A stretch of 64,000 nucleotides of DNA from a virus, in IMG/VR virus record IMGVR_UViG_3300028392_000034, positions 84,971 through 148,970 of that record; one strand, written 5' to 3'. Numbering within the stretch: position 1 is the stretch's first letter; every line of letters starts with the position of its first letter. A program made the translations under genes and the position numbers. Below the pieces are notes generated by a model. The model did no database searches. It worked only from the letters and a program-made list of their open reading frames with translations, and was not told the DNA's origin. Below are positions 1 to 64,000 of this stretch, piece after piece.

Positions 1-3000
1 CATAAAGATCGTAACCAGTGAATACTGCACCATTTGGGAACGTGGTATTACCAGTATTGCCAAAGGCCCATGAGTTAGCACCAGAGTTAGTTTGAATATA
101 AACACTGCTATTACCAGCCAAGGTTGCTGTGTTAGCGGCGTAGTCTAGCCCTAAGTTTACTTGATATGGATCCGCTATGTTGGCAGTCAAACCTACTGTG
201 TCTGTTCCCAAAGTCCATACAGCACCACCGCCCGGCACAGTCAAGTTACCAGCAGTGTCAAATGTCCAGTTAGACTCAACAAAATTGTTGTTGCCTTGAT
301 TGCCCAGCACATTATATTGGGTGATAACAAATGTGCCTCCGGTGCCTTCAGACACAGTAATAACATCACCATTAACATATCCTGAGCCCGGATTTACTAC
401 AGTGACACTTGCTAATTGGTTACTCAGTCCATAGCCTATGCCTACCGTCATTCCTGTGCCTGAACCACCAGTGGTTGCCTTCAAAGCACTTCCAGTATTA
501 TATCCACTACCGCCAGTAACAATGGTACAAATATTAAATTGTCCACCGGCTGTTAAGGTTAACCCTTCTAGATTGATCAATCTGCCATCTGTGCCAAATG
601 TCCATTGTGCTGAGTTGCCTACCGCATCATTGCTGTTGACCACAATATTGCCAGTGTTGGCCAATTTCACATAAAGATTGTCGCTGCCTAGATACAGTTC
701 AGTGTTATACAAATTGCCTGTGGTAAGATGTAAATGATTGCCTTCGACAACATTGCCAGTTGGGTATATTGCCAATTGTTGATCAATATTGCCACCATCG
801 GCAGGGGTAATAATCACTGCATTGCCAGAATAAGTTGTGACTGGTCCTTCTGATACGACACCGCCCTGGGGTAGCGTTAAGTCACCACCTGACCCAAAGT
901 CCCAAGCCTGTGTGTTGCCAACGTTGCCAGAATTGCTTGTGATTACTGTACCGAAAGCATCTATGTTTAGTTGACCCTGGTCTTCACGGATGTAAACACT
1001 TTGATCTGCGCTGAACACAATGCCAGCACCTTGACTGGCATTACCTGGGCCAATCAAGTTGCCTGTACCTGTTTCAAATGTCCAAGTTCCGTAGCCATCC
1101 GTGCCCACATTGACTACCAAATTGCCGTCTGCTGTGGCTATGTTGGCATAGCTGTTACCGTTGGCAATGAGATTGGTTGCTCCACCACCTGATCCACCGT
1201 AAGGATTGCCGTTGGCATAGTTGATGCTGGCAATGTTACTGGGTAGTGTTAAGTTACCGTTTTCATCAAAGGTCCAACGAAGTGGTATACCATCACTTGC
1301 TTTCTGATTTTCAATGAATACTTGAGGTTTGTTTATTAAATTATCTTTGAATGTTACATCTATCCAAGACCATGCATCATTAGGTCCAGTAGCAACATCT
1401 TCTACGTATACATCCCAAACACCTGCTGTTTGATACTCTACTGTTCTATAATTTCCAAATGTTGTAGTGAGTTGCAATGATGTATCAGAAGTTATGTTAC
1501 CTGTAGGGAATATTGTAGTTCCATTATTTCTAAATGACCAAGTGCTTGCACCGGAACCAATGTTTACATTACCGTATTCTGCTAGGCCGTTGGCCGAACC
1601 GCCACCGGTGATACTTACAGCAGCACCTGGACCTGCTTGGCCAAAACCACCAATGATATCAACAGCACCTCCGGTGCCGCTACCACCAACACCACCTGTT
1701 ATCTGAACATATCCGCCCGAGGTAGTGCCACCTTGACCGCCGGTGATTTCAATAAAGCCAGGAGCACCATTGCCTTGCGATTCACCACCATCCATACGGA
1801 TATAACCGCCGGTGCCATCTGCTGGAGCATAACCACCACGGATCTTGACGTCACCACCCGAACCGTTGTTGTTGCCACCACGACCAGCCCATAAGTAGAT
1901 GTCACCACCTTCTCCGCCGTTGCTGTCTTCACCTTTGCCAGGATTGATTACCAAGCGTTGGCTATTAATACCATCTGCATTGCTACCATCTGGAGTTGAG
2001 ATAATGGCTTCTTGTGTGGCATCACCAAACAACAGGGTTTGACCACTAATTGTGCCCGACGGATTGTCACCACGTTGCACTGTTATATTTGGGAATATGG
2101 TGCTACGATCCGCACCAAAGGTCCAGGTGCCTGTGGCTGTGTTGATTGCCACATTACCTGCATAGTTGCTGACTGTCAATGCTTCTACGTTGGCATTTTG
2201 ATTTGCTGGCAAATAGACATCTGCGGCACCTTCAATACCGGGATTGATACGAATACCCTCTGTACCATATTCGGCACCGTTGTATTCACCAATGGTCCAC
2301 TGACCGTCCAGGTAGCCGATCAAGTTGCCAAGACCGTATTGTATAGTATTGGCGGCGCCGCTTGGTGTGTTTGGTAGTGCAATGGCGCCATTTACAGTGA
2401 CATTGCCGTCGACCAAAAAGCCATCCGGTGTGGTCACAGTGATATTCACACTGTTGACATTGGCATAGATACTGCCACTAGGATCTGGAATGTTGACTTC
2501 GCTGAATTCGTTAATCAGTTTGCTTGCTGTTCCAATGTTGGCAGAGGCCACAATTCCAGTTAGCCCAGATCCGTTTCCTGAATAGTTGTAGGAATAAATT
2601 GTGTTCCAACGCAGAGTAGGAGCACCCAAATTACGGACATGAGTCTGATCCGGCACAATGTTGACATTGCTCTTGACCATACCCGTTCCATTAGGAGCCA
2701 ACACCAAGTTACCGTTGGTATTTGTGGTTTTTATGGTGTTGCTGACCATTTGGATATTGCTACCAACCGGACCTGCCGCAAAAACTTGGTCAAAGTTTAG
2801 ATTGGTATCATTGAAAGCTGTGCGTAGCGGATCGCCTGTGCCGTCGTTTGGCAAAGTGCCAATGTTGATTATTTGTTGTCCGCCCGAGCTAAATGTGCCA
2901 GTCATGACACCCGTGGCTGTGGTCAACCCAACGACAGCACCGCCGGGCAAGCTGGTCACTGTGATGGTGCTGGTTGGGTATCCCGGAACGACGGTGCCGA

Positions 3001-3148
3001 TATAATAAGTAGCACCAGCGGTTATTCCGCCAAATGTGGTGCCCGAAAACACAATGGGCATGCCTGAAAACATGTTGGTCGCCGAGCTGACGGTAATCGT
3101 ATCGGTGGTAGCATTGGTGGCTGTAGCGGTTACTGTATAGGTGGTCAT
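1..3148 (-). CDS. Fibre/tail-type virion protein, 3' end beyond window
   Basis: An ATG at 3148 opens a minus-strand frame with no stop through at least 1,049 codons; checking every codon to base 1 found none, so the C-terminus lies outside the window. Residues 96-120 carry the module IGTLPNDGTGDPLR..F...N.NF, shared with the plus-strand structural protein starting at 26992. Residues 172-186 (RNLGAPTLRWNTIYS) resemble fibre repeats of marine T4-like phages. A glycine-rich, collagen-like stretch covers about residues 405-530, followed by repeats built on TWTFGxxGNxTxP. These are hallmarks of long fibrous virion proteins. A TAAATA late-promoter element at 3171-3176 and an AAAAAGG ribosome site precede it. 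It is divergent from the HTH gene at 3278. The exact virion role cannot be told. Confidence 0.85.
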   Translation of the reverse strand, partial: MTTYTVTATATNATTDTITVSSATNMFSGMPIVFSGTTFGGITAGATYYIGTVVPGYPTSTITVTSLPGGAVVGLTTATGVMTGTFSSGGQQIINIGTLPNDGTGDPLRTAFNDTNLNFDQVFAAGPVGSNIQMVSNTIKTTNTNGNLVLAPNGTGMVKSNVNIVPDQTHVRNLGAPTLRWNTIYSYNYSGNGSGLTGIVASANIGTASKLINEFSEVNIPDPSGSIYANVNSVNITVTTPDGFLVDGNVTVNGAIALPNTPSGAANTIQYGLGNLIGYLDGQWTIGEYNGAEYGTEGIRINPGIEGAADVYLPANQNANVEALTVSNYAGNVAINTATGTWTFGADRSTIFPNITVQRGDNPSGTISGQTLLFGDATQEAIISTPDGSNADGINSQRLVINPGKGEDSNGGEGGDIYLWAGRGGNNNGSGGDVKIRGGYAPADGTGGYIRMDGGESQGNGAPGFIEITGGQGGTTSGGYVQITGGVGGSGTGGAVDIIGGFGQAGPGAAVSITGGGSANGLAEYGNVNIGSGASTWSFRNNGTTIFPTGNITSDTSLQLTTTFGNYRTVEYQTAGVWDVYVEDVATGPNDAWSWIDVTFKDNLINKPQVFIENQKASDGIPLRWTFDENGNLTLPSNIASINYANGNPYGGSGGGATNLIANGNSYANIATADGNLVVNVGTDGYGTWTFETGTGNLIGPGNASQGAGIVFSADQSVYIREDQGQLNIDAFGTVITSNSGNVGNTQAWDFGSGGDLTLPQGGVVSEGPVTTYSGNAVIITPADGGNIDQQLAIYPTGNVVEGNHLHLTTGNLYNTELYLGSDNLYVKLANTGNIVVNSNDAVGNSAQWTFGTDGRLINLEGLTLTAGGQFNICTIVTGGSGYNTGSALKATTGGSGTGMTVGIGYGLSNQLASVTVVNPGSGYVNGDVITVSEGTGGTFVITQYNVLGNQGNNNFVESNWTFDTAGNLTVPGGGAVWTLGTDTVGLTANIADPYQVNLGLDYAANTATLAGNSSVYIQTNSGANSWAFGNTGNTTFPNGAVFTGYDLY

Positions 3149-37898: not shown

Positions 37899-38819
37899 AT
37901 GAAAGAACTTTGGATAGAGAAATATAGACCAAAAACTGTAGATGGTTATGTGTTTGTTGATGATAATCAACGTCAACAAGTAGAGTCATGGATTCGAGAT
38001 GGAAGTATTCCAAATCTATTGTTTAGCGGCAGTCCTGGCACAGGCAAAACCACATTAGGAAAACTACTGATCAATGAACTAGGTGTTGATGAGTATGATG
38101 TCCTATATGCTAACGGATCAAAAGAAGGTCGTAAGATTGAATGGGTAGATAAACTGATCAGTTTTTGTCAGACTATGCCATTTGGTAAGTTTAAGGTTGT
38201 GTTTATTGACGAAGCAGACTATTTGAATCCTAATTCAGTTCAACCTGCCATGCGTAACTTAATGGAAGACTATAGTCACAGCGTTCGATTCATTTTAACT
38301 TGTAACTATCCTAATAAAATTATTCCGCCGCTACATTCAAGACTGCAACAGTTACATATCTTAAAAAGTGATCATACTGAATTTACAGCCCGCGCTGCCA
38401 CGGTGTTAGTGACAGAAGAAATTGAATTTGATATTGATACCTTAGATAGTTATGTCCGTGCCACTTATCCAGATCTGCGTAAGTGCTTACAGTTATTACA
38501 ACAAAATAGTCAGTCTGGCGTGTTGAATGCACCCAACAGCGCAGACAAGAGTGTAGGCGATTGGAAACTGGATTGTGTTCAGTTGTTTAAGTCGGGCAAA
38601 ATTCGTGAAGCCCGAACACTAATTTGTCAGCAAAGCACTCCAGAAGAAACCGAAGATATTTTTCGCTGGATGTATGACAATTTAGATCTCTGGACCACTG
38701 ATGTAGAACGTCAAGACCAAGCAATCATTATTATTCGCAACGGCATGGCTGCAATGCCAATGGTAGCTGATCAAGAAATCAATTTAAGTGCCACACTGTG
38801 TGAACTAAGCAGGCTGTAA
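37899..38819 (+). CDS. gp44: Clamp-loader large subunit (gp44-like AAA+ ATPase)
   Basis: 306 residues. Walker A at 44-51 (GSPGTGKT), Walker B at 103-107 (IDEAD), sensor/arginine-finger region with HSVRFILTCNYPNKIIPPLHSR (SRC-like motif as SRL). The N-terminal WIEKYRPKTVDGYVF is the gp44/RFC-type opening. In T4 four gp44 and one gp62 load the gp45 sliding clamp, needed for replication and late transcription. gp62 and gp45 are not visible in the window. The gene sits next to the GroES-like and radical-SAM genes. Confidence 0.9.
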   Translation: MKELWIEKYRPKTVDGYVFVDDNQRQQVESWIRDGSIPNLLFSGSPGTGKTTLGKLLINELGVDEYDVLYANGSKEGRKIEWVDKLISFCQTMPFGKFKVVFIDEADYLNPNSVQPAMRNLMEDYSHSVRFILTCNYPNKIIPPLHSRLQQLHILKSDHTEFTARAATVLVTEEIEFDIDTLDSYVRATYPDLRKCLQLLQQNSQSGVLNAPNSADKSVGDWKLDCVQLFKSGKIREARTLICQQSTPEETEDIFRWMYDNLDLWTTDVERQDQAIIIIRNGMAAMPMVADQEINLSATLCELSRL

Positions 38820-38821
38820 CA

Positions 38822-39958
38822 ATGCCGGCATATGAGGTTCTTGAACCTGCAATAGATCCCAACAATAGAATCTCTTTTCTATTGGATTGGGAACTCACAA
38901 TGAAGTGTAATCTTGATTGTAGTTATTGTGACTCAGGATTAAACGGAGGACACGATAACTCTACCAAACATCCTCCAAAAGACAAATGTATCCAAGCTCT
39001 AGAGTTTATGTTTGAATATGCGGATCAATACATGCAATTCAAGCCTAATGGACTACGGTATGTTGTGCTCAATGTGTATGGTGGAGAAAGTTTACACCAC
39101 CCTGATATAGTAGAAATATTATCTCAAATACAACAAAAATATCAACCATACGCAGACCGTTGGAAATTAACAGTTACTACAACAACCAATGCCATAATAT
39201 CCGATAAAAAATTATCAAAAATAATTCCTTATATTGATGAATTCACCGTGAGTTCTCATGTGGAATGTACCGACCGTCAAAAACAACAGTTTAAACACAA
39301 TCTATTGTCTATTAGAGACTCGGGTAAGAGATTAAAATGTATTGTGATGCTGCATGATAATCCGCAACTATTTCAACAATCTCAAGATTTTTTATTATGG
39401 CTTGATGAAAATCAAATACGCTCATTGCCCAAACAAATCGACGGCGCCAGTTTAAATCAATCGTATGATCAACAACAAATAAAATGGTTTAATTCAATAT
39501 ATCAAAATAAAACATACGGAACAAAAATCTTTGAAATTATCAATACTGATGTTGGTGCGTCTTCCAATCTCAGTCAGGTCGGACGAGCCTGTTGTGGCGG
39601 CAGACAAAGTTGTCTAGATCAGAATTACAAGGAACGCCACTATTACGTTCTCGATAATAAATTTCCAGACTGGTATTGTAGTGTGAATCAATTTTTTCTT
39701 TTTATCAAACAGGTCAATGGAGAAGTATATGTCAATAAAGATTGCAAAATGACATTTGATGGAACCGTTGGGCCAATTGGAAATTTAGATGAGCCTGACA
39801 AAATCATCAACCAACTAAAAACACAACTAAATAACGGACAGCCTGTAATACAATGTAAAATACCCGTATGTCGTTGTGGTCTTTGCGCTCCTAAAGCGAA
39901 AAATCTAGACACATATCATTCAATCATAAAAAAATATCAAAAAAATCACATCACATGA
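38822..39958 (+). CDS. Radical-SAM protein with SPASM-like C-terminal Cys cluster
   Basis: 378 residues. Cys29-x3-Cys33-x2-Cys36 in MKCNLDCSYCDSG binds the radical-SAM [4Fe-4S] cluster; VYGGES is the SAM-contact motif. The C-terminal part is Cys-rich (KDCKMTF, then CKIPVCRCGLC), as in SPASM/Twitch domains holding auxiliary clusters. Members modify peptides, sugars or cofactors. With the sister gene at 40243 and the Fe-S carrier at 26602 it forms a likely Fe-S-dependent system of unknown product. It overlaps the next gene by four bases. Confidence 0.85.
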   Translation: MPAYEVLEPAIDPNNRISFLLDWELTMKCNLDCSYCDSGLNGGHDNSTKHPPKDKCIQALEFMFEYADQYMQFKPNGLRYVVLNVYGGESLHHPDIVEILSQIQQKYQPYADRWKLTVTTTTNAIISDKKLSKIIPYIDEFTVSSHVECTDRQKQQFKHNLLSIRDSGKRLKCIVMLHDNPQLFQQSQDFLLWLDENQIRSLPKQIDGASLNQSYDQQQIKWFNSIYQNKTYGTKIFEIINTDVGASSNLSQVGRACCGGRQSCLDQNYKERHYYVLDNKFPDWYCSVNQFFLFIKQVNGEVYVNKDCKMTFDGTVGPIGNLDEPDKIINQLKTQLNNGQPVIQCKIPVCRCGLCAPKAKNLDTYHSIIKKYQKNHIT

Positions 39959-40236
39959 GATACCTGATGCTAACATATTATTACCAGCCCTCTGGTAAAA
40001 TCGACGAAGTCATGACTGTGGCAACTCGAGTCAAAAATAAAGATTGGCAAACTGCCAGTGTAATTTTGGACTTTAAAGAACAAATAGTTCTCAAAGCTGC
40101 CCTGCGTGATACTGCTATTCCTAAAGACTGGGATCGAATTGTTGGCTACTATTATCCGTTCTATACCAACATCATGGAAAGATTATTGCAACAAAACGGT
40201 CATGAATTACCCAAGGCAGTCGCAATGCAACCATAA
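39955..40236 (+). CDS. Conserved marine-phage hypothetical protein
   Basis: 93 residues. MRYLMLTYYYQPSGKIDEVM, ASVILDFKEQIVLKAALRD and YYYPFYTNIMERLLQQNGHE are typical of a small protein conserved in T4-like marine phages. Here it sits between the two radical-SAM genes, overlapping the first by four bases. No activity known; the placement may be chance or a functional adaptor. Confidence 0.75.
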   Translation: MRYLMLTYYYQPSGKIDEVMTVATRVKNKDWQTASVILDFKEQIVLKAALRDTAIPKDWDRIVGYYYPFYTNIMERLLQQNGHELPKAVAMQP

Positions 40237-40242
40237 TGACTC

Positions 40243-41151
40243 ATGATTGAATCAATTACTGGATTTCACATTGAACCTACTAATATTTGCACACTAAAAT
40301 GTCCTGGTTGTGCAAGAACTCAATTTATTGAACAGTGGCCACAGCACTGGAAAAATCAAAGTCTTGATATTGATTTATTGTTGCAGTTTCTTGATATTGA
40401 TTTGACCAATATAGGTATAAAATTATGCGGCGACTACGGTGATCCGATATATCATTATGATTTTATCAATTTTGTCCGGCGGTTAAAACAAAAAGGTGCT
40501 GTGGTGATGATCACCACCAATGGCAGTTATAAAACACATAACTGGTGGCAAGAGTTAGTTGATATGTTATCGTCCCAGGACAACATAACGTTCAGTATCG
40601 ACGGTACTCCTGAAAATTTTACCCAATATCGAATCAACGCCGATTGGGATTCAATTCGAGTTGGACTAGATGTTGTTGCTGGTTCCAATTGCAATAGTCA
40701 TTGGAAATATATACCTTTTGCGTTCAATCAAACTGATATTGAACAGGTAGAAAAACTCAGTCAGACAATTGGCATCAAGAATTTCTATGTGGGATTCAGT
40801 GACCGATTTGACGAAAAAACTCAGCACTTGATCCCAGACAAGTCGTTGATTAGTTCTCGTTACGCTGTGCAGGCCAAATGGAAATTAGAAAATGCCGCAA
40901 CAGCATTGACACCCAAATGCCATACCGGCCATGAGCATTTTATTACAGCCGGCGGACATTATATTCCATGTTGCTATCTTGCCGACCATAGATTTTATTA
41001 CAAAACACCATTTGGTAAAAACAAACCGCAATACGATATTCGTCAACATACCCTGTCTGAAATTTTACAACAGCCGCAGACCATAGAGTTTTATCAAACA
41101 CTGGATCAACATCCTGGATGCCAATACAACTGCCCAAACACAGCCGGTTGA
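40243..41151 (+). CDS. Radical-SAM/SPASM-like protein
   Basis: 302 residues. Cys16-x3-Cys20-x2-Cys23 (NICTLKCPGCAR) is the radical-SAM site; the KLCGDYGDP segment is the SAM-contact region. Later Cys pairs (GGHYIPCCYLAD; HPGCQYNCPN) suggest an auxiliary cluster. The sequence resembles the MoaA/PqqE-like class, but the substrate is unknown. A shorter version of the type at 38822; the two could be partners or paralogues. Confidence 0.85.
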   Translation: MIESITGFHIEPTNICTLKCPGCARTQFIEQWPQHWKNQSLDIDLLLQFLDIDLTNIGIKLCGDYGDPIYHYDFINFVRRLKQKGAVVMITTNGSYKTHNWWQELVDMLSSQDNITFSIDGTPENFTQYRINADWDSIRVGLDVVAGSNCNSHWKYIPFAFNQTDIEQVEKLSQTIGIKNFYVGFSDRFDEKTQHLIPDKSLISSRYAVQAKWKLENAATALTPKCHTGHEHFITAGGHYIPCCYLADHRFYYKTPFGKNKPQYDIRQHTLSEILQQPQTIEFYQTLDQHPGCQYNCPNTAG

Positions 41152-54304: not shown

Positions 54305-55087
54305 ATGACTGACCACTACCAAACTCTGGGCGTTGACCGCAACGCTACTCCTGACCAAATCAAACGGGCCTATCGTAAATTGGCCAGTCAGCATCATCCT
54401 GACAAAGGTGGAGACAAAGCACGATTTCAAGAAATTCAAGCCGCATACGATATACTAGGCAACGAGCAAAAACGTGCCGAATACAACAATCCGCGTCCGC
54501 AGGGTTTTAATTTTCAACATCAGGGGCCAGGCGGATTTGATTTTAACACTATATTTGATGTGTTCGGTGCCAGGTTCCAACAGCCACATCAACGGGTGAA
54601 TCGAGCACAAATGACCTTGTGGATTACACTAAACGATGTGGCCGTAGCTGGCCGCAAAACTATCAGTGTAGGCACTCCTCAAGGCACACAAGTTATAGAA
54701 ATAGATATACCTGCCAATATCGATGATGGTGATAGTGTTCAATACGCTGGTGTAGGCCCAGGTGGTATTGACCTAGTAATAACCTTTAGAATTCACCCCA
54801 ATCCCAAATGGCATCGTCAAGGCCCGAATTTGACTGTAGACCAAGACGTAAGCGTGTGGGACCTCATTTTAGGTAAGGATATTGTAATTCAAGACGTTTT
54901 GGGCAATCAACTTACCTTAACTGTACCGCCCAGAACACAGGCCAAAACCACGTTTAGATTACAAGGACGAGGACTTGGGCAAAAAGGCAATGCACCTGGC
55001 GATATGTTTGTGCGGGTTAATGCTGTGATACCTGCACATATTCCTGAATCATTGATGGCGGCCATTGTCCAAAGTCGTGACCAATAA
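54305..55087 (+). CDS. dnaJ: DnaJ-type co-chaperone (no zinc finger)
   Basis: 260 residues. J-domain with HPD at 31-33 (SQHHPDKGGDKARF), a short Gly/Phe region (GFNFQHQGPGGFDF) and two beta client-binding domains (MTLWITLNDVAVAGRKTIS; DIPANIDDGDSVQYAGVGPG). It lacks the zinc finger of DnaJ, as in CbpA/DnaJB. It would stimulate host DnaK. Directly followed by the ClpA-like unfoldase. There is no Shine-Dalgarno at the ATG, so it may be leaderless from the terminator-embedded promoter. Confidence 0.9.
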   Translation: MTDHYQTLGVDRNATPDQIKRAYRKLASQHHPDKGGDKARFQEIQAAYDILGNEQKRAEYNNPRPQGFNFQHQGPGGFDFNTIFDVFGARFQQPHQRVNRAQMTLWITLNDVAVAGRKTISVGTPQGTQVIEIDIPANIDDGDSVQYAGVGPGGIDLVITFRIHPNPKWHRQGPNLTVDQDVSVWDLILGKDIVIQDVLGNQLTLTVPPRTQAKTTFRLQGRGLGQKGNAPGDMFVRVNAVIPAHIPESLMAAIVQSRDQ

Positions 55088-55129
55088 ATAACCATATAGG
55101 TTGCAATTCTATTCTAACGGTAGTATAAT
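55085..55129 (+). promoter_or_regulatory. Tandem late and sigma70-type promoters for clpA
   Basis: AATAAATA (55083-55090) in the dnaJ stop region, then TTGCAA-N17-TATAAT (55101-55129); the ATG at 55160 follows AAAAGGA. This gene may be active early and late. Confidence 0.65.
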
Positions 55130-55159
55130 AACTGTAAGGCGTATTATTAAAAGGAATAC

Positions 55160-57436
55160 ATGCAAAACAATCCCGAAATTGAACAAATAGTCGATGCCGC
55201 AGTCAAAATGGCACGTGATAGTCATCATGAATATGTAATGACTGAACATGTGTTGTTGTCGTTAATTAAACATGATCCTTTCTGTCGTGTATTAGACAAG
55301 TTCGGCACTGACACAGGACGACTACAACAAGAGCTAGAATCTTATCTCAGTGGTATAGTCACAATAGTTGCAGCAACTCCAGTTCCACCCAAGAAAACCA
55401 ATGCGCTGGAACGTGTGTTTAATCGCGCACTAACACAGGTGCTGTTTACTGGTCGCAGAAGTGTTAGCACCTTGGATTTATACTTGGCCATAATGAGCGA
55501 GACCAATAGTCATGCACACTATTTCTTGCTTAAATTTGGAGTGAAAAAACAAGAATTTGCAGAATTTTATCAAACCAATTATAAACAAAGTGATGTTCGA
55601 CTCACTGACCAACAGGCAACAGAAATACTGGCCGAGCACTGTGTTAATTTGACTGACTTGGCCAGAGAAGATCGATTAGAGCCCATGATTGGCCGCACCG
55701 ACGAACTAGATGAAATGATCACAGTGTTGGCCCGCAAGTTCAAAGCCAATGTGCTGATGGTAGGCGATCCTGGTGTGGGTAAAACTGCCATCGTCGAAGG
55801 CCTAGCGCAGGAAATGCAGGCCAACCGTGTTCCAGCATTCCTTAAAGGACACGAACTGTGGAGTTTAGAAGTAGGAAGCCTGTTGGCTGGATCCAAGTAT
55901 CGCGGCGAGTTTGAAGAAAAGTTCAAGGCCGTTATTACTGCACTTGAAACCAAGAAAAACTGTATCTTGTTTGTGGACGAAGCACACACTATGCAAGGCG
56001 CAGGTGCCAGCAGTCAAGGCAGTTTAGACATGGCCAATATGCTTAAACCTGCCATCACTAGAGGCAATATCAAAGTGGTAGCGTCAACCACCTGGGAAGA
56101 ATACTACGAATCATTTGAAAAAGATCGTGCGTTGATGCGTCGCTTCCATCGGGTCAGCATTGATGAACCTGATGCAGTAACAACAGAGCAAATCCTTATT
56201 GGACTTAGCCCACGATTGGAATCGTTTCACAATGTGTTGATTGACACCGAAGCTATCACAGCCGCAGTTCACTTGAGTGGACGTTACATACACGATCGTA
56301 AAAATCCCGACAAATCAATTGATCTATTAGACGGTGCCTGTGCCAAGGAACGTGTACGAGATGCGGGCAATGTAACTGTCAACAAGCAAATGATCATGGA
56401 GCAATTGAGTCGAGTTACCGCGGTTCCTTTGGATCGATTGGAGAATGAACGCAGTGCCAAGATTGTTGATTTAGAAACCAACATCAAGCAAAAATTATAT
56501 GGACAAGATGCGGCAGTGGATCGTGTGCTGGAACGTGTGTATATCAACTTCAGTGGCATCGGCAATGCCAAGCGTCCTATTGCCAGTTTCTTGTTCTTGG
56601 GCCCAACTGGCACAGGTAAAACAGAGTTGGCTAAATTGCTCGGTGAGCATCTAGATATGAAACTGCTCAAGTATGATATGAGTGAATACCAAGAACGTCA
56701 TACTGTGTCGGGTCTCATTGGTGCTCCTCCAGGCTATGTGGGTTTTGAGTCCGGCACAGTGGGCGGCGGTAAACTGATCAGTGATGTAAGTAAAAATCCG
56801 TTTAGTATCTTGCTGTTTGATGAAATCGAAAAGGCACACCCTGACGTGATCAACATCATGTTGCAGATGTTGGATGAAGCACGTATTACATCAAGCAGTG
56901 GCAAAACAGTGGATCTTAAAAACTGTATCATTATTATGACATCAAACTTGGGTGCCAGAGACAATGAAAACAACAACATTGGATTTGGACAAAGTTTAGA
57001 ACGCACTGGCAGTGAAGAAAAAGCCATGAAAGAGTTCTTTAAGCCCGAGCTACGCAACCGTATTGACTGTGTGTGTAAGTTTGACAAGTTAGATACATTG
57101 GCCATCAAGAAGGTTGTGCTTAAATTTGTCGACGAACTCAAAGATAGTTTGTTAAACAAAAACATCCGGTTAAACTTGACCGAGTCAGTGATTGACATGT
57201 TGGCTGACAAAGGTTACGACAGCAAAATGGGTGCTAGACCACTGGGCCGTAAAATTGACGAATTAATCCGTGTGCCGCTTAGTAAGCGTATCTTGTTTGA
57301 TCGCCTGGACAACTGCACTATAACTGCCACAATGGTCGAAGATACTGTTGAATTTGATATTGAACCTCTGGTGCTGGCTCCTACAGTAGACAAAGACGGA
57401 TACATCGTGCTCAACCAAACAGGCGCAAATGTTTAA
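55160..57436 (+). CDS. clpA: ClpA-like AAA+ unfoldase
   Basis: 758 residues, full length for ClpA (E. coli 758). N-domain with YVMTEHVLLSLIKHDP at 23-40; first AAA+ domain with Walker A GDPGVGKT (202-209) and LFVDEAHTMQGAG; second with GPTGTGKT (481-488) and MLQMLDEARITSSSGK. IGF at 607-609 in NNIGFGQSLERTG aligns with the ClpP-binding IGL/IGF loop. It could unfold host or phage proteins and, with host ClpP, degrade them. Sits next to DnaJ, with early and late promoters. No ClpP gene visible. Confidence 0.92.
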   Translation: MQNNPEIEQIVDAAVKMARDSHHEYVMTEHVLLSLIKHDPFCRVLDKFGTDTGRLQQELESYLSGIVTIVAATPVPPKKTNALERVFNRALTQVLFTGRRSVSTLDLYLAIMSETNSHAHYFLLKFGVKKQEFAEFYQTNYKQSDVRLTDQQATEILAEHCVNLTDLAREDRLEPMIGRTDELDEMITVLARKFKANVLMVGDPGVGKTAIVEGLAQEMQANRVPAFLKGHELWSLEVGSLLAGSKYRGEFEEKFKAVITALETKKNCILFVDEAHTMQGAGASSQGSLDMANMLKPAITRGNIKVVASTTWEEYYESFEKDRALMRRFHRVSIDEPDAVTTEQILIGLSPRLESFHNVLIDTEAITAAVHLSGRYIHDRKNPDKSIDLLDGACAKERVRDAGNVTVNKQMIMEQLSRVTAVPLDRLENERSAKIVDLETNIKQKLYGQDAAVDRVLERVYINFSGIGNAKRPIASFLFLGPTGTGKTELAKLLGEHLDMKLLKYDMSEYQERHTVSGLIGAPPGYVGFESGTVGGGKLISDVSKNPFSILLFDEIEKAHPDVINIMLQMLDEARITSSSGKTVDLKNCIIIMTSNLGARDNENNNIGFGQSLERTGSEEKAMKEFFKPELRNRIDCVCKFDKLDTLAIKKVVLKFVDELKDSLLNKNIRLNLTESVIDMLADKGYDSKMGARPLGRKIDELIRVPLSKRILFDRLDNCTITATMVEDTVEFDIEPLVLAPTVDKDGYIVLNQTGANV

Positions 57437-60849: not shown

Positions 60850-63800
60850 ATGAACATCACGGAATTAAACTCATATAATCTTGACGACGCTGTTAAATTC
60901 AATGATCAATTGAATCCACGCTTGTGGGACAATCGTGAGCATTTGCGCCCCGAAGTGCGCGAACGCTTGCTGGAAATAGCCGACGACTTTCGTGAGTTTT
61001 TGGGTGTAACAGATCTAGCAATTAAGGACATTACCATCAGCGGATCAAATGCGGCTTATACATATACGCCCAACAGTGATATCGACCTACACTTGGTAGT
61101 AGACATGCCAGATAATCCTGTTTACCGTGAACTGTTTGATGCCAAAAAGTTTCAGTATAACGAACAACACGATATTAAAATTGGTGGCGCCGATGTAGAA
61201 CTATATGTGCAAGATGCCGACAAGCCGCACGTCAGTCAGGGCATATATTCTATACTAAACAACGACTGGTTACAGGTTCCACGTAGAGTACGGAGTGTAG
61301 TGGATGATACCAGCACCCGCAACAAGTTTGAAAAAGTTGGCCGGCAAATTGAATCGGCCATTAAGTCCGGTAATTTAAAACGCATAACACGTTTAGCGGA
61401 AAAAATTAAAAAGATGCGTCAGACTGGATTGGAAAATCACGGTGAGTTTGGTCCAGAAAATTTAGCATTTAAAATGTTGCGTAGTCAGGGTTTGATTAAA
61501 CAGTTATACGATGCCCGCAATACGGCCAAGGATAGAGAATTTAGTCTCAAAGAAAAAGCAGTTGTACCACGAACAACATATGGCTTCCGCACTCCTACTG
61601 TAGTCGAAGCTGATACAGTGGCGCTTGAAGAAGCGTCGGTACCGTCAGATGAAGCAATACTCAAAGACTTTATTGGTTTCTGTGTTGCTGAACTGAAGAT
61701 CAAATCCATGCCCACAATCAAACTGCGTCGAGATCCGCAATGGCCTGTGACACACACCACCTTTGGCCGCTACATCAATGATCAACACCTGTTGGAAGTG
61801 GCCTGGGGCGATCGTCACATCATGGATGTGCTGCGCACTGTGGCACATGAACTCACACACAAACATCAACACGAGCGTGATGGCAAGCGCATGGATAGCA
61901 CTGCTGGCGAAACTGGATCACCATGGGAAAATGAAGCCAATGCCAGAGCCGGCATACTCATGCGTGACTATGCTAGAATGCATCCAGAATACTTTGCTGT
62001 GGGCCAAGCCGATGATTTACATGCCGACGAAGTTCACGAAAGTGCATCAGGTTATATTCCTACCAAGCGGCAGGCTAAAGATCCACGCTATAGTATGGCG
62101 CTCACGGTGGACATTAAACCAGGACAAGTGGGCCGAGAAGCCAATAAATTAAAACTCAAGACCGACAGTCAAGGTCATCCACAGATAGCCAACCCCAATG
62201 GTCTGTTTGAACAGTTGGCAACAGAACTGGATCATTTCAAACAGCAAGATCTATTTGAAATCAACATGGGGAGCAAGAACCTGCGCAGAGAGGCTGCTAA
62301 AACCGGTGCCATTGCAGGCATGGAATTTGAAATGATTGTGCCCAATGTTGAAGGCAGTGGGGACGAAGATTTAGAACCTGACTATGACATGGACGAGCGT
62401 TGCCGTAGCATACAGGATGCCTATGACTTTTTCTATGATGGTGACTACAACAGTCGCCGTGATTGTGATCGTATGCGTGAAAAAATGCACGAGGACTATT
62501 TAGAGTGGTTGGATGACAAAATAGCCACGGACTGGACACGAGGTGGTGAGGAATACATTGCTGAATGGGTCAAGAACAATGTGGATGAATCTGTATGGAA
62601 TCCCGACGATTTGGCGGGTGATGCTCGCAACGAAGCCTTGGAAGAATATGCAGCCAATATTCATGCTGACCCTGATAGTAGAGACTATGAATCAGCCTAT
62701 GAAGAGTTCCGTGAAGAAAATCAAGAAAGTTATGATGAAAGCGACTGGTTGGATGATGCAGATCTAGATCGCATGAGTTATGTTGAAGGTTCATACAGTA
62801 TGAATTGGCCGCACTGGCGATCACAAGGCGGTGGCGAAGCTAACATTGAAGATGTGGCACAAGAGTTTGAAAATGCCATTGGGCGTGATGTTAGAGCCAG
62901 TGGCAACTATCATTCAGGCTCGGTGATCAGACCCAGTCCTACACAGTTGCGTTATGTGGTTGAACCCGATGGCAGTTTAGAACCGGACAATTCCGGCGAC
63001 CAAGGCTTGGAGTTTGTATCACCACCCTTGCCCATTGATGAAATACTAGGTGACCTAAACAAGGTCCGGGCCTGGGCCAAAGAATATGGTTGCTATACCA
63101 ATGATTCAACCGGCTTGCACATCAACATCTCAGTGCCCGACTATAGTAGACAGAAACTAGACTTTGTGAAACTGGCCTTGCTCATGGGCGACAATTATGT
63201 GTTGGATGCATTTGGGCGTGCCGGCAATACCTATGCCAAGTCAGCCTTGGACATTGTTAAAAAAGCCGTACGTGACAATCCTGACAATGCGGCCAAACTG
63301 TTGGACAAGATGAAGGGCAACATGGACCAGTTGGCCAGCAAGGCCATACACTCAGGTATCACCAGCAAGTATACGTCAATCAACACCAAGGACGGACACA
63401 TTGAATTCCGCTCACCCGGCGGTGACTGGTTGGATGAGAACTTTGATCAAATTGAAAACACTCTATTGCGTTTCACAGTGGCTATGAGTGCGGCACTTGA
63501 TCCTGATGCATACCGCCAAGAATATTTGACTAAACTATACAAGTTGTTGAGCGACGGTAACAAAGATGTTGACACTATCCGATACTTCAGTGACTATGTG
63601 GCTGGCAAGATTCCCAAAGCTGCACTGAGAAGCTTTGTCAAACAAGCACAACTACAACGCAATATCAAGCGTGGCAAGCATGACGGCCAAAAAATGTGGT
63701 GGAAAGTTTACAAATACGGCAAGAATGCTGGCCAATATAGTTACACAGTGGAAGTGGTTGCTACCTCAGAAGAAGAAGCCAAACAGAAGGCTGCAAAAGA

Positions 63801-64000
63801 ATGGGGCGAACCGCTCTTGGTCAACACTCTGGCTCAAATGGATGCTGAAGTTTTACGGCCCTACGATGAACAACCAGACAAACCTGGCGCAACACAGACC
63901 GGCACAGGAACCTATGAACTGTTCGATAGACGCACTGGTGAGGTAATTCCCGACACTGAATTCTCTGCTCGCAATCAATCAGATGTAAACACAAGATTAG
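60850..64000 (+). CDS. Multidomain nucleotidyltransferase / HExxH peptidase / amidoligase protein, 3' end beyond window
   Basis: The frame is open from the ATG at 60850 to base 64000 (1,050 codons, no stop), so the C-terminus is outside. Domain 1: pol-beta-type nucleotidyltransferase, GSNAAYTYTPNSDIDLHL (Gly65-Ser66, Asp77, Asp79). Domain 2: zinc peptidase, HELTH at 333-337 with a likely third ligand Glu360/362 in WENEANARAG. Domain 3: amidoligase-like, GMEFEM (490-495), GLEFVSPPLP (719-728), STGLHINIS (753-761) and HIEFRSPGGDW (850-860), matching the Amidoligase_2 ATP-dependent carboxylate-amine ligase motifs. Long acidic linkers separate them, and a coil and Arg/Lys-rich segment follow. Late-type leaderless start. 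Possibly a virion or DNA-end processing polyprotein. Confidence 0.75.
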   Translation, partial: MNITELNSYNLDDAVKFNDQLNPRLWDNREHLRPEVRERLLEIADDFREFLGVTDLAIKDITISGSNAAYTYTPNSDIDLHLVVDMPDNPVYRELFDAKKFQYNEQHDIKIGGADVELYVQDADKPHVSQGIYSILNNDWLQVPRRVRSVVDDTSTRNKFEKVGRQIESAIKSGNLKRITRLAEKIKKMRQTGLENHGEFGPENLAFKMLRSQGLIKQLYDARNTAKDREFSLKEKAVVPRTTYGFRTPTVVEADTVALEEASVPSDEAILKDFIGFCVAELKIKSMPTIKLRRDPQWPVTHTTFGRYINDQHLLEVAWGDRHIMDVLRTVAHELTHKHQHERDGKRMDSTAGETGSPWENEANARAGILMRDYARMHPEYFAVGQADDLHADEVHESASGYIPTKRQAKDPRYSMALTVDIKPGQVGREANKLKLKTDSQGHPQIANPNGLFEQLATELDHFKQQDLFEINMGSKNLRREAAKTGAIAGMEFEMIVPNVEGSGDEDLEPDYDMDERCRSIQDAYDFFYDGDYNSRRDCDRMREKMHEDYLEWLDDKIATDWTRGGEEYIAEWVKNNVDESVWNPDDLAGDARNEALEEYAANIHADPDSRDYESAYEEFREENQESYDESDWLDDADLDRMSYVEGSYSMNWPHWRSQGGGEANIEDVAQEFENAIGRDVRASGNYHSGSVIRPSPTQLRYVVEPDGSLEPDNSGDQGLEFVSPPLPIDEILGDLNKVRAWAKEYGCYTNDSTGLHINISVPDYSRQKLDFVKLALLMGDNYVLDAFGRAGNTYAKSALDIVKKAVRDNPDNAAKLLDKMKGNMDQLASKAIHSGITSKYTSINTKDGHIEFRSPGGDWLDENFDQIENTLLRFTVAMSAALDPDAYRQEYLTKLYKLLSDGNKDVDTIRYFSDYVAGKIPKAALRSFVKQAQLQRNIKRGKHDGQKMWWKVYKYGKNAGQYSYTVEVVATSEEEAKQKAAKEWGEPLLVNTLAQMDAEVLRPYDEQPDKPGATQTGTGTYELFDRRTGEVIPDTEFSARNQSDVNTRL

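Follow-up and report, generated by a model that had tools for sequence, protein, structure and literature searches.

The three enzyme modules of the polyprotein

The last 3,151 nucleotides of a 64,000-nt stretch of viral DNA (here the window; positions 84971–148970 of the 148,970-bp IMG/VR record IMGVR_UViG_3300028392_000034) encode a nucleotidyltransferase (NTase), a zinc metallopeptidase (zincin) and an amidoligase in a single open reading frame (ORF). The ORF starts with the ATG at 60850 on the + strand and is still unterminated after 1050 residues, at the point where both the window and the virus record stop inside the gene. Another contig in IMG/VR, L002, matches all 3,151/3,151 shared bases and a further 8 kb upstream exactly, and completes the ORF as a full-length polyprotein of 2,082 residues (Table 1). 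This extension, suggested in an earlier sequence-only reading of the locus, added DUF6934-like, ParB-like and basic C-terminal modules. The C-terminal halves differ among relatives, with LysM and SLT domains in L017 and other modules in L010 and L012. No solved structure matching the ORF was found by sequence search.

Close upstream of the polyprotein gene (54305–57436), a DnaJ-like gene is followed by one for a Clp-type ATPase (phrog_4871, E 5e-231), possibly a chaperone/unfoldase pair. Elsewhere in the window, two radical-SAM-like genes (38822–41151) adjoin a T4 gp44-type clamp loader (37899–38819), and a 1049-residue ORF on the − strand (2–3148), open at the window start, matches only a head-closure PHROG, and that weakly (E 0.002). 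The remaining window is mostly coded on the + strand.

Table 1. Features of the polyprotein and of the operon that follows it. Positions are those of the window unless contig L002 or residues are named; a slash marks the candidate point of cleavage.
Feature	Position	Strand	Basis or remark
Polyprotein ORF, 5' half, 1050/2082 aa	60850..64000	+	Contig end falls inside gene; rest is L002:8001-14249
Module 1: pol-beta NTase and helical domain	60850..61551	+	PF01909; phrog_36119, E 2.8e-43; catalytic residues; fold
NTase/zincin junction, two candidate prohead-protease sites, VVE/A (residue 253) and LEE/A (residue 261)	61600..61632	+	
Module 2: minigluzincin metallopeptidase, HELTH 333-337 (61846-61860), third ligand E360	61633..62034	+	A3 alignment; Foldseek 4jix; S-SRM01 solo homologue
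Candidate site VHE/S (residue 397), zincin/module 3 boundary	62032..62040	+	
Module 3: ~63-aa SASGYIPTKRQAKDPRYSMALTVDIKPG module, no assigned function	62041..62229	+	Also directly behind leaders in other phages
Candidate site LFE/I (residue 470), ahead of amidoligase	62251..62259	+	
Module 4: Amidoligase_2 / COOH-NH2 ligase, glutamine-synthetase-like fold	62263..63729	+	PF12224; A2 alignment; model and Foldseek
Beginning of variable C-terminal half	63730..64000	+	Continues in L002
DUF6934-like domain	Residues 1496-1554 (L002)		Below Pfam cut-off
ParB-like domain	Residues 1629-1687 (L002)		Below Pfam cut-off; supported by several PHROGs
QGVAE/G linkers	Residues 1700 and 1925 (L002)		
Basic C-terminal module	After DVAE/N, residue 2028 (L002)		
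Operon gene, 382 aa	L002:14246-17607		Start MKANEFITE/KWSQKYKSSINC, i.e. MKANEFITE/KW
Operon gene, 308 aa	L002:14246-17607, middle		Start MRLREFAP (related start); GH19-type lytic domain by eye from sequence
Operon gene, 429 aa	L002:14246-17607		Start MKAHEFVVE/S; ParB-like; KKQGVTE/AFDQPY joint

The N-terminal module scores above the Pfam cut-off for NTP_transf_2 (PF01909, residues 49–107; E 2e-4, 22.1 bits against a cut-off of 21) and has the marks of that superfamily, a GS...DxD motif with a third acidic residue on the sheet. G65, S66, D77, D79 and E117 are identical in 35/35 aligned homologues. AlphaFold modelled the NTase and zincin part (mean pLDDT 88.6) as two confident domains with a disordered joint between them, and the best Foldseek matches of the NTase model were AAD(9)/AadA adenylyltransferases and the CD-NTase CdnE. 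By its model, module 1 most resembles small-molecule adenylyltransferases; its catalytic activity is predicted. Solo homologues occur in cyanophages, Caulobacter phage Cr30, Maribacter phages and Lak phages. The solo NTase of cyanophages and Lak phages (phrog_36119) consists of the same NTase and helical domain, 30–40% identical to module 1, but unlike the polyprotein is single and without a linker, and in cyanophages sits in the replication gene region.

Module 2 is a gluzincin by its HExxH motif and downstream Glu ligand. H333, E334 and H337 are kept in 27/27 homologues and E360 in 28/29; in a separate zincin alignment (A3), HExxH and the downstream Glu are invariant (21/21). The zincin model best matched the minigluzincin jannalysin (4jix, Foldseek prob 0.97), and the match to Peptidase_M78 (IrrE; PF06114, residues 330–381) was weak, at 13.7 bits under the Pfam cut-off of 22. 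Cyanophage S-SRM01 encodes a solo zincin without attached modules.

Module 4 belongs to Pfam Amidoligase_2 (PF12224, residues 665–822; E 4.7e-7, 30.4 bits against a cut-off of 22) by score and by its catalytic residues, E492, E494, H757, E852 and R854 being conserved in 21/21 homologues and E705, D707 and E721 likewise invariant (A2 alignment). Its AlphaFold model (pLDDT 75) best matched glutamine synthetase (Foldseek E 1.6e-3, prob 0.97) and YbdK; we claim only the superfamily because the TM-scores of the model are low (0.2). The module shares the conserved catalytic Glu/His/Arg and the glutamine-synthetase-like fold with the Pfam family, from which it differs by a long acidic helical insert (approximately residues 510–640) and by being fused to NTase and zincin modules. 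The predicted reaction would couple a carboxylate with an amine. Solo amidoligases occur in Salicola phage SCTP-2 and in the Agrobacterium jumbo phage Atu_ph07, where the gene (L067:3581-5083) has a leader-like start, lies two genes from a T4-type portal gene and adjoins an RlaP-type NTase.

Pfam profiles, homologue alignments and AlphaFold/Foldseek comparisons thus bear out the polyprotein-like fusion and the three assignments of the sequence-only reading: the pol-beta NTase, the HELTH zincin and the amidoligase. All residues it had singled out (Asp77/79, His333/337, Glu492/494 and His757) proved invariant in homologues, and among the profiles NTP_transf_2 and Amidoligase_2 scored above their cut-offs and Peptidase_M78 below.

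Module junctions and capsid-targeting-like leaders

The modules of the polyprotein are separated by candidate sites of the form [LIVMF]-x-E (Table 1), a motif near the one (L/I-x-E) after which gp21, the prohead protease of T4, cuts. The NTase/zincin junction falls inside a disordered stretch of the AlphaFold model (pLDDT <50 at residues 243–257). At the zincin/module 3 junction, relatives have IAE/S, VTE/S, LEE/G, LTE/A or LKE/A; several have QNE/S or QYE/S, without a hydrophobic P3. Ahead of the amidoligase most relatives have LDE/V, and the solo amidoligase genes have LTE/V, LNE/V, LDE/V or LTE/L following a leader of 13–20 residues. Module 3 also follows leaders elsewhere (MKIKDLFE/TAAVGYI and MLLNELFSQLDE/VGGVG); searches of cultured phages with module 3 and the C-terminal modules gave no match at E 0.01.

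Further solo modules start with MRAQEFVTE/NFADG, MLIKELTE/NFADG, MRYKQIKPVVEQTLTE/VNMSP, MRLHDIFETQLDE/VSMSP and MRWQDISSKKLTE/LKM, and the S-SRM01 leader reads MKNFHQFITE/AT. Leaders of the MRAxEF[IV]xE type are near-copies of the T4 capsid-targeting sequence MKTYQEFIAE, with which IPII and IPIII start (MKTYQEFIAE/A). The passages on T4 in PMC9026906 describe the IP leaders as capsid-targeting propeptides of 10–19 residues, removed by gp21 after L/I-X-E. Judged from leaders such as FVTE, V at P3 would extend this reported rule (L/I at P3). The polyprotein itself begins with MNITEL, which resembles a capsid-targeting leader though it is no clear one. Directly after it, in the same virus and beyond the window end, lies a leader-bearing operon (L002:14246-17607; Table 1).

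Of the ORFs that carry the QGVAEG linker (see below), 32/75 have a leader; internal positions predict 2.8, and among the remaining ORFs of these loci the count is 165/1082 (Fisher p 5e-8). Junctions were also placed by homology instead of by motif, by locating the leader-following module of one ORF inside another ORF. The 306 junctions so placed are not independent, because module families are shared; 235 of them carry [LIVMF]xE at −5 to +2, against 35 expected from random positions in the same ORFs. When these modules lie inside a fusion, [LIVMF]xE again stands ahead of them, in upstream sequence that is unrelated. The motif is short, and its density is just 1.6-fold higher in junction segments than in domains (24.0 vs 14.8 per 1000 residues). 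Genome-wide, none of G000, G005 and G004 had a clear surplus of leaders by a loose test, and a tighter test of the G000 fragment as a whole gave no enrichment (13/187 vs 10.9); a strict leader pattern occurred 10 times in G005 vs 2.5 expected.

In S-SRM01, a leader-bearing cytidyltransferase is followed by a modular-looking protein of 552 residues with a DUF3008 domain (L069:5913-7571; E 6e-14).

Prohead protease, capsid and virion context

Two relatives on long contigs (G004 and G005) encode gp21 (E 1e-25), the gp23 match in relatives reaches E 1e-98, and the gp21 protease is present on 6/12 long linker-bearing contigs; an ORF of L064 also encodes a gp21 homologue. Neither gp21 nor gp23 was found in the 148,970-bp record of the window virus, itself a fragment. 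The relatives' capsid protein has KKYLRE/NASSG near the expected end of its propeptide, and their scaffold has VITE/SLST. Some linker-bearing ORFs have matches among PHROGs annotated as virion structural protein or as endolysin. Mass spectrometry of purified virions detected the cytidylyltransferase T4-GC190 of cyanophage S-SM1 (PMC3037559). Its N-terminus, MKKFSAFLNE/A, is of the leader type, which together with the virion detection gives outside support for the entry of leader-bearing proteins into virions.

We consider it probable that the polyprotein is a set of independent effector enzymes destined for the head of a T4-type myovirus and cut at the joints by a gp21-type protease. The modules with their intact active sites, the interchange of leaders and joints, the in-frame linker DNA, the shuffling of modules and the gp21 and gp23 of relatives are observed; packaging, cleavage and injection we infer as follows. 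The producer would be a T4-type myovirus, probably a jumbo phage, whose prohead core would take up the polyprotein as T4 internal proteins are taken up, and a gp21-type prohead protease would cut it at the joints between modules, behind [LIVMF]-x-E. The mature head would then hold the NTase, minigluzincin, amidoligase, ParB-like and small modules as separate proteins, which would enter the host along with the DNA. In the single-gene forms a cleavable capsid-targeting leader would replace the joint, and QGVAEG, as a nearly fixed DNA string, would be a seam for module exchange between phages.

If true, a leader or joint would mark packaged cargo; many hypothetical proteins of environmental T4-type phages could then be understood in the same way, and proteins delivered at infection would be predictable from sequence. 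It would also explain the fusion of enzymes as unrelated as an NTase, a peptidase, an amidoligase, GNAT, ParB-like proteins, a nucleotidase and lytic enzymes.

Alternative explanations

The locus could instead encode a polyvalent protein (Iyer et al., 2017), an injected multidomain protein that either works uncut or, should it be processed, is cut by its own zincin. Zincin MPTases have been proposed to process polyvalent proteins (PMC5512222), and a large multidomain phage protein with a zincin and a ParB-like domain, and in L017 with LysM and SLT lytic domains, has the expected composition. Self-processing by the internal peptidase had also been raised as a possibility in the sequence-only reading. 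However, a zincin is present in just 4/139 linker-bearing ORFs and also exists solo with nothing attached, and the junctions fit the prohead-protease rule and can trade places with capsid-targeting leaders, so we consider this account unlikely. Because 135/139 linker-bearing ORFs have no zincin and the junction motif fits the prohead-protease rule, we rejected zincin self-processing as a general mechanism. The embedded zincin may cut something, and self-processing confined to the NTase-zincin-amidoligase ORFs is conceivable.

We regard as improbable an intracellular enzyme fusion that is expressed in infection and never packaged, with the [LIVMF]xE joints as short linkers conserved by chance. 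In cultured cyanophages, the solo genes for NTase and zincin do belong to the replication region, with gp43, uvsX and regA-like genes as neighbours, and the genes immediately upstream of the polyprotein in the window (a cytidyltransferase and a putative glycosyltransferase) are without leaders. Yet the operon downstream in the same virus carries leaders, a replication-region cytidylyltransferase with a leader is in virions, and the Atu_ph07 amidoligase combines a leader-like start with a position near the portal gene.

Exchange of modules among relatives

Relatives were fetched as 61 loci, and the counts of modules per ORF include some duplicate entries. One module stands without the other two in many ORFs (NTase in 45, zincin in 18 and amidoligase in 9); combinations are NTase with amidoligase (3 ORFs), NTase with zincin (2) and all three (17). 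The order NTase, zincin, module 3, amidoligase is common to approximately 12 distinct relatives, and relatives insert up to ~400 residues of other modules between the shared ones. NTase, zincin and amidoligase behave as independent exchangeable units. That the three act sequentially on one substrate, in a peptide-tag or toxin-like conjugation, is highly improbable: all three share one ORF, with active sites intact, in the 17 scanned entries (some of them duplicates), but solo modules are frequent and neighbours vary, and we rejected a tandem pathway because each enzyme also occurs by itself or in different company. The proposal that the combination could nucleotidylate, cut and ligate is the part of the sequence-only interpretation that gained no support, the modules occurring singly, paired or reordered elsewhere; the fusion and the three enzyme assignments were supported.

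Other linker-joined polyproteins combine a GNAT acetyltransferase with a GH19 endolysin (L015:7283-9277) and a deoxyribonucleotidase with ParB-like domains (L017:13507-16419). Synechococcus phage DSL-LC02 (WJZ48406), a cultured T4-like cyanophage, encodes a 665-residue protein of the same small modules adjoining the small terminase (L296:928-2925).

A linker conserved as DNA

IMG/VR stretches were searched for the exact string CAAGGTGTGGCGGAAGG, which encodes the linker. It was present in at least 120 stretches, with up to four copies in one stretch among the matches listed, and between modules that keep changing. Among the matches listed, 163/163 copies read in the QGVAEG frame (of the three frames of that strand), and this frame was the longest of six in 161/163. 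Conservation drops to background beyond ~21 nt. A synonymous control string gave 40 single matches in mixed frames, and 257 Gb of bacterial genomes gave 26 single matches to the linker, also in mixed frames, by which a bacterial origin was rejected. At loci chosen independently of the linker, 10/13 QGVAE were encoded by an identical 15-mer, vs 0.75% expected from codon usage, and the Ala codon was GCG in 12/13, although GCG makes up 9% of Ala codons. These two counts and the control string reject an ordinary codon-level coincidence.

With exact duplicates removed, the flanks of 165 linkers group into 124 families on the upstream side and 133 on the downstream side; pairs of linkers share the upstream family alone in 63 cases, the downstream family alone in 51 and both sides in 0. 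The joint is probably kept as DNA because modules recombine through it. We tentatively propose that the element of ~21 nt, about RARCAAGGTGTGGCGGAAGGC, in frame (K/E)QGVAEG, is both a prohead-protease site and a recombination seam, by which T4-type phages would add, remove and exchange cargo cassettes in frame, to be released singly inside the head. The DNA-conserved linker adds a possible mechanism of module exchange, and is the part of the system that could prove categorically new; none of the papers searched mentions the QGVAEG linker.

Comparison with known systems

With phiKZ and SPN3US, whose ejection proteins are cut by gp175 and gp245, respectively, the polyprotein would share head-packaged proteins trimmed after glutamate by a gp21 relative; the relevant passages of PMC9026906 and PMC10052503 describe removal of propeptides from head proteins, not the splitting of several enzymes off one chain. 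With polyvalent proteins (PMC5512222) it shares giant mosaic architecture, zincin, ParB-like, lytic and basic domains and domain shuffling, and like them it holds several unrelated effector domains in one phage protein. It differs from them in its prohead-protease-type joints, its leader-bearing single-gene equivalents, its DNA-conserved linker, the presence of amidoligase and pol-beta NTase modules in a phage, and a zincin that is not the general processor. With T4 IPI-IPIII and Alt the system shares the short leader M[KR]..EF[IVL]xE/, the T4-type gp21 and gp23 of relatives, and unrelated cargo behind one leader type. The T4 internal proteins are separate genes, whereas here the cargo is different and many domains lie in one chain with internal protease-type sites. 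By analogy, the polyprotein would work like the T4 internal proteins, with their leader and gp21-type rule, while looking like a polyvalent protein.
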